Below, one piece after another: positions 2-42,901 of a stretch of DNA of 64,000 nucleotides. The number at the start of each line of letters is the position of its first letter. Position 1 is the first letter of the stretch. Made by a program: the position numbers and the translations under genes. Source of the stretch: Gammaproteobacteria bacterium (GTDB lineage Bacteria > Pseudomonadota > Gammaproteobacteria > Acidiferrobacterales > Sulfurifustaceae); assembly GCA_029863005.1 (NCBI GenBank), contig JAOTWF010000004.1, positions 1 to 64,000 on the forward strand. Reading direction: 5' to 3'. The notes beneath the pieces were generated by a model. The model ran no database searches, was not told where the DNA came from, and saw only the letters and a program-made list of their open reading frames with translations.

Positions 2-3000
2 CTTGAGCCGGCCTATATCCTGGGCTGGATCGTCTTCACGCTGTGGTACTTCCCGCGCCAGATTCGTCCACTGACCGATTTTCTCGAGAGGCAGCCCAAC
101 GCCGACCCGGAGGCCGCGGCGCGCGCGGTGAAACGTTTTCCGCTGATCTACTGGGCGACGTTCCTTGTATACCTGGTGATTGCTCCCGTGTCGGTGGTCG
201 CGGCGGCGCATATCTATACCGACTTCGTCGCCACGCCGTATGCGCTGTTTCGCATCGAGCTGGTCGCGCTGATCGTCTCGATCATCGTCGGCCTGCCGAT
301 CTTCTTCCTGATCTTCGATCTGTTCGGCCAGGCGCTCGGCGGGATTGAGCTCAAGCGCCCGATTGTCACGATCAGGGCCAAGGTGTTCCTGATCGGCGCG
401 CTGGTGCCGCTGCTAATCGACACCATGCTGGTGCAGTACTACTGGACCCGTACTGGCTTCTTCACCTTTGAAACCTTTGGCGTGTGGCTGATGCTCGAAC
501 TGCTTGCGATCGGCGGTAGCCTGATCTTCGCCAACAGCTTCGGCCAGTCGCTCGGCCCACTGCGGATGCTGCTCGATTCGCCGCGCCCCTTGCCGGCGGC
601 GGATGTGGCCGCGCTCACGGCACGCTCGACCGACGAACTCGGACTGCTCACCACCGACTACCGGCTGCTGCTCGCCGAACTACAGCGGCGCAACGAAATT
701 CTCGAGCTCAACAACCGGTTGCTGCGCCATGTAGGGGGTGAGACCGGCACGGCCGAGATATTCGCGGCGGTGGTGGATCTGTGTCGTCAGGCGACGGGCG
801 CCGACCTGTCGTTCCTGATCGAGCACGACCCGGCGTCCGGCACCCTGCTGGGCGTCGCCCTGACCGATGCCGAGTATCGCCCGGAGGGTCATTATCGGCT
901 GACGCTCGACGAGCAGTCGCTCGCGGTCTGGGCCTTTGTGCAGGGGCAGACCGCGGTGGCCGCGGACGCGCCCAGCGATCCGCGCGTCAGCCCGGAGCTC
1001 AGCAGGCACTTCGGCATTCGCTCGGCGATGGCCACGCCGCTCAAGGTCGGCGATGACAAGCTCGGCGTCCTGATGGTTGCGCACACGGCCAGCCGCCGGG
1101 ACTACGACGACCGCGACCGCGCGCTGATCGAAGGCGTGGCGCGCGAAACCGCGCTCGTCGTCCAGACCCAGCAACTGCGCCGAGCGCGCGAGCGTGCCGC
1201 GGCCGAGCACCTGGAGCAGGCCGAGCATGTGCGCATGCTCATGGATGCCACCGAGGAAGGAATCTATGGCGCGGACACCAATGGCGTGTGCACCTTCATC
1301 AACCGCGCGGCGGTGCGCATGTTGGGCTACCGCGACCCCAGTGAACTTTTGGGGCAGAACTTGCACGAGCTCATTCACCACTCTTTCCCGGACGGTCGGC
1401 CTTACCCGAAGGAGCAGTGTCGCGTGCGGCTCGCGACGCTCGCCGGCGAAGCCGCGCATGCCGACAACGAGGTGCACTGGCGCGCCAACGGCAGCTCGTT
1501 CCCGGTCGAGTACTGGTCGTGGCCGATTGTGCGCGAAGGCCGGATCGTCGGCACCGTGGTGTCGTTCATCGACATCACCGAGCGCAAACGTGTCGAGGAG
1601 GCGCTGGCGGACGCCTCCGATCGCTTGCGCCAGGCGCTGCGCGCGGCGCGCGCCGGCGCCTGGGAGTGGAACATCAGCACCAACGGGGTCACCTGGTCCG
1701 AGGAAAATTTCCTCGTCATGGGGCTGGATCCGCACACCCACCAGGCAAGCTTTGACAACTGGCTTTCCCGGGTGCATCCGGAGGAACGGGAACGCTGCAC
1801 GCGCGAGATCCGGCAGGCGCTCGATGCCGGCGTCGATCTGAATCTGGAATTCCGGGTCATTTGGCCCAACGGCGAGGTCCGGTGGATCAACGATGTCGGT
1901 CGTCTGGTGTATGACGCAAGCGGCAAGCCCAAGTCAATGTACGGGATCCAGATTGACATCACCGAACGCAAGATGGCACAGGAAAAGAACCTGTTCTTTG
2001 GGCGCATACTCGATGAGTCCACCAATGAGATCTATGTCTTCGACGCCAACACCCTGCACTTCATTCAAGTGAATTCAGGCGCGAGGAATAACCTTGGCTA
2101 CAGCCAGCATGAACTGCTGAATTTAACCCCGCTCGATCTGAAACCCGAATTCACGCGGGACAGCTTCGAGGCGTTGATCGCGCCGCTTAGGCATGGCGCG
2201 CTTGACATGCTGGTCTTCAATACCGTGCATCGGCGCAAGGACGGAAGCCTCTATCCCATCGAGGTGCACTTGCAGTTGGCGCGCCAAGTGTCGCCGCCGG
2301 TGTTCGTCGCCGTCATTCAGGACATCACCGAGCGTCAGCGGGTGGAGGCATTGAGAGCAGCAAGCGAGGCGCAAATGCGCGCGATCATTAATGCCTCGCC
2401 GGTTCCGAAAGCCTTGAGCGACGAGCATCAGAACATCACCTTCCTGAATCCGGCCTTTACTGAGATTTTAGGTTATACCCAGAAGGATATCCCGACGCTC
2501 ACCGAATGGTGGCTCAAGGCCATCCCGGATCCTGAGTACCGGCAGCTGGTGGCGAAGACCTGGCAAGCCACGTTAGACAAGTGCCAGTGGAATGGCGCAG
2601 TGTTCCCGCCCTTGGAGATGAATGTGCAGGCCAAGGACGGAACGGTGAAAACCGTTCTGGCGAGCACCGCTCCCATCGGCCAGTCATTTGTCGGCTCCCA
2701 CTTAATGGCTCTGTATGACATAACCGAGCGCAAACGTGCCGAGGCCGAGCGCGAGCGCCTGCTGGCCGAGTTCACCAAGACCAATATCGAGATGGAGAAT
2801 TTCGTCTACACCATCTCGCACGACCTCAAGAGCCCGCTCATCACCATTGGCGGCTACGTTAGCCTGCTGAAAAAAGACATCGCCAAGCGTAAAGATGCGG
2901 CAGTCGCCGATTCGATTCTGGAAATACAAAAGGCCGTGGCAAACATGAAAGTCCTGATCGAGAACCTGCTGGAACTCGCGCGCCTGGGACACGTTGCCGG

Positions 3001-40182: not shown

Positions 40183-40830
40183 TTATTTCCGTGATTTTGG
40201 TTTTGTGAACAGTCTCGCATAGCGCCGCGCGGCAGCACGGACATCGTCCTGCCCGAACACGCCTTCGATTACGGCCAGCGCGTCGGCCCCGGCGGCGACG
40301 AGATGGGCACCATTTTCCGGGGTGATGCCACCGATGGCAACCACGGGGAGGCGCAGCTTCTGCTTGGCGGCGCACAGCAATTCAAGGTTGGCGCGCACCG
40401 CCTGCGGCTTGGTGTGCGAGGGGTAGAAACTGCCGAAGGCGATATAGTCCGCGCCCTGCGCTTGTGCCTGCTCGGCACGCGCCAGCTCGTTGTAGCAGGA
40501 CACACCGATGATCGCTTGCTGGCCGAGCATGGTGCGCGCCTCGGCGAGCGCGGCGTCTTCCCGCCCCAAGTGCACGCCGCTCGCCCAGGCCTGCTTCGCC
40601 AGCTCAATATCGTCGTTGACGAGGAACAGCACGTTGTGTTGCCGGCAGAGTTTGGCAATTTCCCGGGCCTGCCCGAGACGCGACTCGGCATCGTGTTTTT
40701 TATCCCGGTACTGAATGACGCGCGCCCCGCCGAGAATGGCTTCGCTGACGGCCTTGGGCAGCTTTGCGTCATCCAGGTACTGGGTGTCGGCAATGGCGTA
40801 GAGCCCAGCAAGGCGCGGTGAAATGATCAT
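40183..40830 (-). CDS. thiE: Thiamine-phosphate synthase
   Basis: [12 protein letters not shown]...[26 protein letters not shown]...[17 protein letters not shown]...[11 protein letters not shown]. Confidence 0.95.
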
Positions 40831-41054
40831 TATGTTTATCGGATAAAGTTTGTTCCGCGTTACAAACGGTCCAGGGGCTCTTCACCGTCCGTCCGGTTCC
40901 GCACTTGGGTGGAAATTATCGTGGTCGATACAATCGCGACGACTGCCTCGTCCATCTTTCGTTGTCCAATATAATCGATAGGGTTCTATTGTCAGAGTAG
41001 ATTATACGGCGTAGGGTGCCAGATTATACGGCGATTTTGAATTCGAATTTATTG

Positions 41055-41366
41055 TTAGACGCAGAAGGCGAAATTCGAATGAACAAGGAATGGCACAAGG
41101 CAAACAAATTGTCGCCGAAGGCATTACTTGAAGATCGAATCCGATGGCATCTAGCTCATGCGAAGAAGTGCGGATATCGCCCCATACCAAAATCCATTCT
41201 CGCAGGAATTAAAGAAAGAAAGCTGCAGTGAACAAAAACAAAAAAGCCAATTACGCGTATACCGATGCCCAAAGGGAGATCGCGTCTAACAATGTGTTCG
41301 AGACAGATGCGGTAATACAGCACTCCGTTTCCAATTTTTACGGTGGCGGCTCGACACAACAACACG
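41055..41366 (+). mobile_element. Putative solitary integron gene cassette
   Basis: Bounded by G^TTAGACGC (41054-41062) and G^TTAAAT (41366-41372); contains one short ORF followed by an attC-like site. Confidence 0.6.
41079..41231 (+). CDS. 50-aa small protein of unknown function (cassette ORF)
   Basis: MNKEWHKANKLSPKALLEDRIRWHLAHAKKCGYRPIPKSILAGIKERKLQ; internal ATG of ORF 41016-41231. Confidence 0.7.
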   Translation: MNKEWHKANKLSPKALLEDRIRWHLAHAKKCGYRPIPKSILAGIKERKLQ

Positions 41367-41372
41367 TTAAAT
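41282..41372 (+). other. attC-like recombination site
   Basis: R'' GTCTAAC (41284-41290), L'' TGTGTTCGAG, L' CTCGACACA (one unpaired base), R' GTTAAAT (41366-41372); 89 nt. Confidence 0.6.
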
Positions 41373-41407
41373 TTTCTAAATACGTGGTTCCAGGAAAGTG
41401 AGCACAA

Positions 41408-42019
41408 ATGAAATCTGTTAACTGGGACGGAAAAAAGATTTATCCATCCAAGATTGTATGTATCGGCCGAAATTATGCCGAACATATCAAGGAGTTTGAC
41501 AACGAGGCTTCACAAGAACCTGTCATATTTATGAAGCCGAATTCGGCCCTCTCGAATGAAATCCATTCCAGTAAAAACGATGTAATTCATTATGAAGGAG
41601 AAATAGCTTTCTTGATAAGTTCCGGCGAACTCAAAGGTATTGGGTTCGGGCTGGATCTCACCAAGCGGGAACTGCAATATGAATTGAAGGGCAAGGGTTG
41701 GCCCTGGGAGCGCGCCAAGGCCTTTGATAACTCCGCCGTATTCAGTGAATTTGTGACATTCGGCGGCAACATCCGTGATTTGAGAATGGAATTTTACATC
41801 AATGGCGCCTTGGCCCAGGTCGGCAGTTATGACCTGATGATCAGCAAGCCGAAGCAAATGCTAAACGAAGCCAAAACTTTCCTTTCCTTTGAAGACGGTG
41901 ATTTATTGATGACCGGAACGCCGAAAGGCGTGGGTCCTGTTAAGGCTGGCGATAAGTACCTCGGCAAGATCTTCGAAAAAGACAAGTTGATTGTTGAAGG
42001 TTCCTGGGTCGTGAAATAA
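41408..42019 (+). CDS. Fumarylacetoacetate hydrolase-family protein
   Basis: KIVCIGRNYAEHIKEFDNE...PVIFMKPNSAL...YEGEIAFLIS...DGDLLMTGTPKGVGPVKAGD. Confidence 0.92.
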   Translation: MKSVNWDGKKIYPSKIVCIGRNYAEHIKEFDNEASQEPVIFMKPNSALSNEIHSSKNDVIHYEGEIAFLISSGELKGIGFGLDLTKRELQYELKGKGWPWERAKAFDNSAVFSEFVTFGGNIRDLRMEFYINGALAQVGSYDLMISKPKQMLNEAKTFLSFEDGDLLMTGTPKGVGPVKAGDKYLGKIFEKDKLIVEGSWVVK

Positions 42020-42082
42020 AAAAATCACTAATCAGTTGAGTGGCGATGTTTCGACTTCTCCACTCGAAACTTGCTTCTCCCG

Positions 42083-42901
42083 TCAGGATTCATCACCCTC
42101 CGGCTCATCCATCTCCCAGGCCCAGTACAGCCGGTTCGGTAGCAGCTGGCCCATGCCCGGGCGAAAACCGTGTTTCAGGCTTTCCCAGGTGTAGCGCAGG
42201 GCCTCGCCCACGGCATTGATCGGATCGAGCCCGTGCGCCAGCGACGCCGCACAGGCGGAGGCGAGCGTGCAGCCCGAGCCGTGGAAACTTCCGGGCAGGC
42301 GCTCGAACACGAAAGTTTCCAGCAGGCGCATGTTGCCGTACAGGCGGTGGATGACCTCAGGCGATTTCTCGTGCGTGCCGGTGATCAGCACGAACTCGCA
42401 TCCGAGCGACATCAGCTCCTGCGCACAGGCATCGATCGTGTCGGCATCGGAGGCAAGCGCGCGCGCCTCGAGGCTGTTGGGCGTAATCAACGTGCACTGC
42501 GGGATCAGCAAGGTGCGCAGGGCGCCGTCGAGCATGCTGTCGGCGAGCGCATCGCCGCCGCCCGAGCGCTGGATGGGGTCGAGGATGAGCGGGATGTCCG
42601 GATAATCCTCGACGATCCCCGAGACGGCCGTGGCCACCTCACTGCTGCCGAGCATGCCGACCTTGAAAGCGGTCACCGGCATGTCTTCCAGCACCGCGCG
42701 TGCTTGCGCAATCACAAGTTCCGTCTCGGTGCAGGCGAACTCCTTGATGCCGGCCGTGTCCTGCGCGGTGACGGCGGTGACAACCGGGGCCGGGTGACAC
42801 CCAAGGCTCGCGAGCGTCAGCACGTCGGCGGCGATGCCGGCACCGCCGGAGGGGTCGGTGCCGGCGAACACCAGAACCACGGGCGGCGTGGAGTGGCTCA
42901 T
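42083..42901 (-). CDS. thiD: Hydroxymethylpyrimidine/phosphomethylpyrimidine kinase
   Basis: VLVFAGTDPSGGAGIAADVLTLASLGCHPAPVVTAVTAQDT...GSFHGSGCTLASACAASLA. Confidence 0.95.
   Translation of the reverse strand: MSHSTPPVVLVFAGTDPSGGAGIAADVLTLASLGCHPAPVVTAVTAQDTAGIKEFACTETELVIAQARAVLEDMPVTAFKVGMLGSSEVATAVSGIVEDYPDIPLILDPIQRSGGGDALADSMLDGALRTLLIPQCTLITPNSLEARALASDADTIDACAQELMSLGCEFVLITGTHEKSPEVIHRLYGNMRLLETFVFERLPGSFHGSGCTLASACAASLAHGLDPINAVGEALRYTWESLKHGFRPGMGQLLPNRLYWAWEMDEPEGDES

Follow-up and report, generated by a model that had tools for sequence, protein, structure and literature searches.

Between the vitamin-B1 genes thiE and thiD, the 64-kb stretch of DNA analysed here (the window), from a soil or sediment bacterium of the genus Sulfuricaulis, carries what a sequence-only reading had taken for a solitary, SALIN-like integron gene cassette. 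The question raised by this locus is how one cassette came to lie there: by insertion at a chance chromosomal site, by loading of a recombination site from a distance, or as the last remnant of a complete integron. The evidence given below makes it probable that a sedentary chromosomal integron once occupied this locus, of which only a stump is left.

The cassette and its attC

The cassette occupies positions 41055-41366 on the plus strand (312 bp, TTAGACGC...CACG), its limits being set by the closure between the 5' boundary and R''. The attC, defined by covariance model, alignment with sister attCs and folding, lies at 41282-41372 on the same strand, with R'' at 41282-41290, L'' at 41293-41302, L' at 41350-41358 and R' at 41366-41372; all four motifs are where the sequence-only reading had placed them. 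The boundary TTGTTAGACGC at 41052-41062 is the exact 11-bp reverse complement of GCGTCTAACAA at 41282-41292, as had also been claimed, and the pair is unique, there being no further exact copies in the 64-kb window beyond those at 41052 and 41282. There are 38 RYYYAAC sites on the plus strand of the window; when the 1.5 kb upstream of each is inspected for a GTT-anchored complement 9 nt or longer, that at 41284-41290 alone has one. In the circular form, the cassette closes over 9 nt from the GTT and 11 nt overall. L'' and L', TGTGTTCGAG and CTCGACACA, are paired with one extra base.

A covariance model was built from 17 sister-genome attCs out of real arrays, with the window attC excluded. It matched the window attC over the full length of the model at 41283-41372, with 26.4 bits and E=1.6e-4 for the 64 kb searched, and the second-best match within the window had E=0.53, the E-values of this home-made model being rough. 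The window attC could be aligned with sister attCs, with which it has the 3' arm CAACAACACGTTA in common. Rfam contained no family matching attC. The cassette, the attC, the orientation and the boundaries are as originally proposed. Folding of the bottom strand, which had been suggested as a check, gave a weak hairpin: the structure has an energy of -8.5 kcal/mol (z=+0.27), compared to -15 to -25.5 kcal/mol for the eight attCs compared, and folding of the single strand alone did not tell the window attC apart from shuffles. The arm pairing is real, yet the site looks degraded, and a weak hairpin is what is expected after loss of an integrase. A fold no better than that of shuffles is also what a chance resemblance would give, with the integron feature absent altogether. 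That explanation is scarcely credible, being refuted by the held-out match and opposed by the boundary closure, the attI and the sister arrays described below.

The cassette contains an ORF of 50 aa at 41079-41231 (plus strand). A related protein stretch was found in one of the 273 other genomes of the class, with no attC found beside that relative, and the ORF was not found on plasmids; any use of it is presumptive. An open frame at 41016-41231 has a GTG start in the attI and continues in frame into the cassette ORF, which recalls the ORFs of attI1 that assist the translation of first cassettes. A 57-aa frame over the attC (41228-41401) was without family match and was interpreted as fortuitous. 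The variable segment is flanked on its right (41373-42082) by a low-GC FAA-hydrolase family gene (41408-42019, plus strand), lying between the cassette and thiD, and then by the 3' end of thiD. This gene was considered as a second cassette and ruled out, as the covariance model shows no attC 3' of it.

The attI upstream of the cassette

The segment immediately upstream of the cassette, 41000-41054 (plus strand), has the structure of an attI, with the left box TCGAA at 41043-41047 and the crossover G at 41054. The direct repeats GATTATACGGCG are two exact 12-bp copies at 41000-41011 and 41022-41033, 22 bp apart, and an exact 12-mer repeat in this segment was reached in only one of 20000 shuffles. 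At the recombination point, G41054^TTAGACGC, the attI is joined to the first cassette at G^TT. The repeats lie at -54 and -32 relative to the crossover, compared to -54 and -35 in the attI1 of a class 1 integron plasmid record. The attI1 of class 1 integrons has the same arrangement, ie a pair of direct repeats on the 5' side of the crossover, at near-identical distances from it, then G^TT; the window attI is otherwise unrelated to it in sequence, and is not adjoined by an intact intI.

The attI core, TCGAATTTA..G^TT, resembles the attIs adjoining intI in genomes G001 and G015. Among 41 genomes searched, the last 33 bases of the attI, TTATACGGCnnnnTTGAAnTCGAATTTATnGTT, occur as one copy each in the window genome and three other Sulfuricaulis genomes, with no copy in the remainder and none in the reversed control. 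In G002, G004 and G005 the window-type attI heads cassette arrays at two loci, neither of which is the thiE locus, with no intI alongside. In view of the repeats, and of a core in common with intI-adjacent attIs, the window cassette is, as judged by its sequence context, located at an attI and not at a random G^TT. The sequence-only reading, which had a mobile cassette entering a G^TTAAAT-type site in a housekeeping locus, was wrong or incomplete about the target.

A single cassette may also enter a chromosomal GTT off target (attG-type insertion). This is a known process, cited in PMC12444791 and given among the origins of CALINs in PMC8618304, and the single attC at the locus is in keeping with it. 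It is most improbable in this instance, the target being an attI that has paired repeats and a conserved core and is found ahead of cassettes in four species, at loci that are not orthologous.

The probable integrase remnant and the thiE-thiD locus in relatives

The left flank of the integron locus is thiE (40183-40830, minus strand), identified from its ORF and from synteny with contig C5 of G002 and contig C46 of G003. Between the attI and thiE, the minus strand has an open 41-codon frame at 40860-40985, NPIDYIGQRKMDEAVVAIVSTTIISTQVRNRTDGEEPLDRL, which encodes ...VSTTIISTQVRNRTDGEEPLDRL, the IntI counterpart being VSTTMIYTHVLNRGGRGVxSPLD. When the search was narrowed to 170 nt, eight of the nine sister IntIs aligned at this spot in C-terminal register. 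With a C-terminal IntI profile the frame scored 36.4, against maxima of 32.6 for 1200 control segments and 36.2 for 1200 shuffles, one of the shuffles lying less than 0.3 below the frame. Its stop is 29 nt from the start of thiE, and the intact intI of G003 ends 32 nt from thiE. The frame was missed by the tblastn search for intI relics at all loci (E<0.01) and by the full-length IntI HMM. It is strongly suggested, on the basis of some 41 codons and their position, that 40860-40985 is the probable remnant of an intI 3' end. No integron integrase over the TIGR02249 cut-off was found in the assembly, a 95%-complete MAG in which a gap could hide one, in agreement with the earlier remark that none was in view; the TIGR02249 and tblastn searches likewise found the window locus to lack the functional intI in cis of a complete integron.

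In G003 an intact intI lies between thiE and an attI, with thiE directly downstream of intI and the array on the far side of the attI, which is of a different family from that of the window. The flanks of the window locus are syntenic with those of G002 (~86-88% identity), and the replaced segment is confined to 40810-42098. The gap between thiE and thiD contains other cassettes or a related attI in G002, G006 and G008, and ordinary genes in G004 and G007; no intI relic was seen in the thiE leaders of the first three. An empty insertion site had been predicted for sister genomes and was found in none, the gap being filled by other cassettes or genes.

The attI and the relic, together with the intact intI at the same place in G003, point to a stump and away from an off-target solitary cassette. 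The ancestral order would have been thiE <- intI <- attI -> cassettes, as is still visible in G003. IntI would have put the circular 312-bp cassette into the attI by attI x attC recombination, with cutting after the G of G^TT; the junctions imply that insertion at this point restored the inverted boundary pair. Later, intI would have disappeared apart from the final ~40 codons adjoining thiE, and the attC would have drifted. We infer this order and timing of events. The alternative is that the block never had an intI here, and was loaded in trans by an integrase elsewhere that has since been lost. Such an origin would be in line with the presence of the window-type attI, unaccompanied by intI, elsewhere in G002, G004 and G005 (two loci), with the many intI-less attI blocks in the genus, and with the in-trans traffic indicated in G004 (see below). 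We regard it as unlikely, since the window locus has the probable intI 3' relic and G003 has an intact intI at this position. Among the other attI-only loci tested, no relic is seen except at type D in G006. These loci were examined by the same tests, of limited sensitivity. The exception, on contig C4 of G006 (L131, ~1790-2113), combines a type D attI with a relic of the N-terminal part of intI (36 bits), ie another decayed integron.

The integron stump, as the preferred reading, also bears on classification. IntegronFinder catalogues attC sites without integrase as CALIN or SALIN, with a default CALIN threshold of two attCs (PMC9024848). The window locus resembles these in having attC without a neighbouring integrase, and differs from them in having an attI. 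With only one attC it is not a CALIN as defined in IntegronFinder 2 (at least two attCs, no integrase). With one attC and no integrase nearby it is a SALIN by description, so this part of the earlier label stands; the presence of the attI and the probable intI relic makes it an integron stump all the same, and not an off-target SALIN.

A second integron of the window genome, on contig C47, is linked to lexA2 and has an attI and four attCs; it is devoid of intI, and lexA2 lacks its first 37 codons. In G002, G004 and G007 intI or its end is kept beside lexA2. With no other integrase seen in the assembly, and the C47 integron also without intI, the window cassette is presumably now effectively fixed and immobile. 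As to lexA2 itself, this second LexA paralogue (window genome C47, L115:3290-3826; G002 C278; G004 C1:433599-434216; G007 C16) encodes a protein 36-40% identical to the other LexA and, in several species of Sulfuricaulis, is the immediate neighbour of the integron integrase gene; in the window genome its N-terminus has gone together with intI.

In Xanthomonas, PMC12444791 describes degenerate chromosomal integrons with intI deleted or truncated beside ilvD, and intI loss and CALINs at conserved loci. The likeness to the ilvD integrons, as described there, is of an ancestral integron at a fixed housekeeping locus, with intI lost and one or more cassettes remaining; the window locus differs in keeping only one cassette and an intI relic of ~40 codons. 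On the stump reading it is a clear intermediate in chromosomal integron loss, having attI, one cassette and the last intI codons, with the integron intact in a sister species.

attI blocks away from integrases

As found with the covariance model, attCs are scattered over the chromosomes of Sulfuricaulis and related genera, many of them without integrase. The boundaries of first cassettes sort into families of attI blocks, ~125-180 bp in length and ending at the crossover, with several blocks per genome. Types A and B, which adjoin intI in G004 and G007, respectively, recur without intI, and type C is matched as many as eight times in a single genome among G005-G008. Pairwise identity between copies of a block falls to background at a common 5' edge. 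G011, G020 and G026 each have a further copy of their intI-adjacent attI at another locus, 70-90% identical to it. Two further blocks were observed in the window genome. On contig C23 (L213, ~512-624) the leader half of a window-type attI is fused to a type C core; the crossover of this chimera is mutated (ACGTCGG), and no attC was found within 1.5 kb. On contig C90 (L198, ~1300-1347, minus strand) a truncated type A attI lies downstream of the gene that precedes a seven-cassette, integrase-less array at 1.98 Mb in G004, the two being the same attI locus, eroded in the window genome.

The genome of G004 is a single contig of 2.86 Mb in which one integrase exceeds the cut-off. The first two cassettes of its intI array (400 and 619 nt) have letter-for-letter copies in an attI-headed array ~1.54 Mb away, and the flanks on both sides of G^TT differ between the two arrays. 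This points to site-specific traffic, in which the integrase would load a remote attI in trans; independent capture of the same cassettes may also explain the identity. On balance we favour, with some reserve, the view that integrons of Sulfuricaulis and related genera are distributed, ie that several chromosomal loci per genome have received copies of an attI block (the ~125-180 bp leader from intI to the crossover, intI itself excluded), which an integrase encoded elsewhere loads in trans. CALIN cassettes are thought to be servable in trans (PMC9668308). The Delta-attI-type cassettes of mobile integrons (PMC12901181) likewise have attI sequence away from its usual place; in those, a partial attI is the recombination site of an unusual cassette, whereas the Sulfuricaulis blocks head arrays at separate chromosomal loci. 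Xanthomonas CALINs away from ilvD are described in the passages of PMC12444791 consulted with attI copies going unmentioned, whereas the integrase-less arrays of Sulfuricaulis open with attI blocks. No report of dispersed attI blocks was found in the open-access literature, subscription papers lying outside the search. IntegronFinder detects attI for class 1 only (PMC9024848), and the window attI is therefore invisible to it.

CALINs are listed in PMC8618304 as arising by off-target insertion, by loss of intI or by rearrangement; distributed attI blocks, if real, would be a birth route outside these three. Clusters of attC without integrase are catalogued about as often as complete integrons (PMC9024848), and are usually interpreted as debris or off-target insertions. 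If many integrase-less arrays start with recognisable attI copies, they would be satellite capture sites within reach of a single integrase, and their origin would become directly testable.
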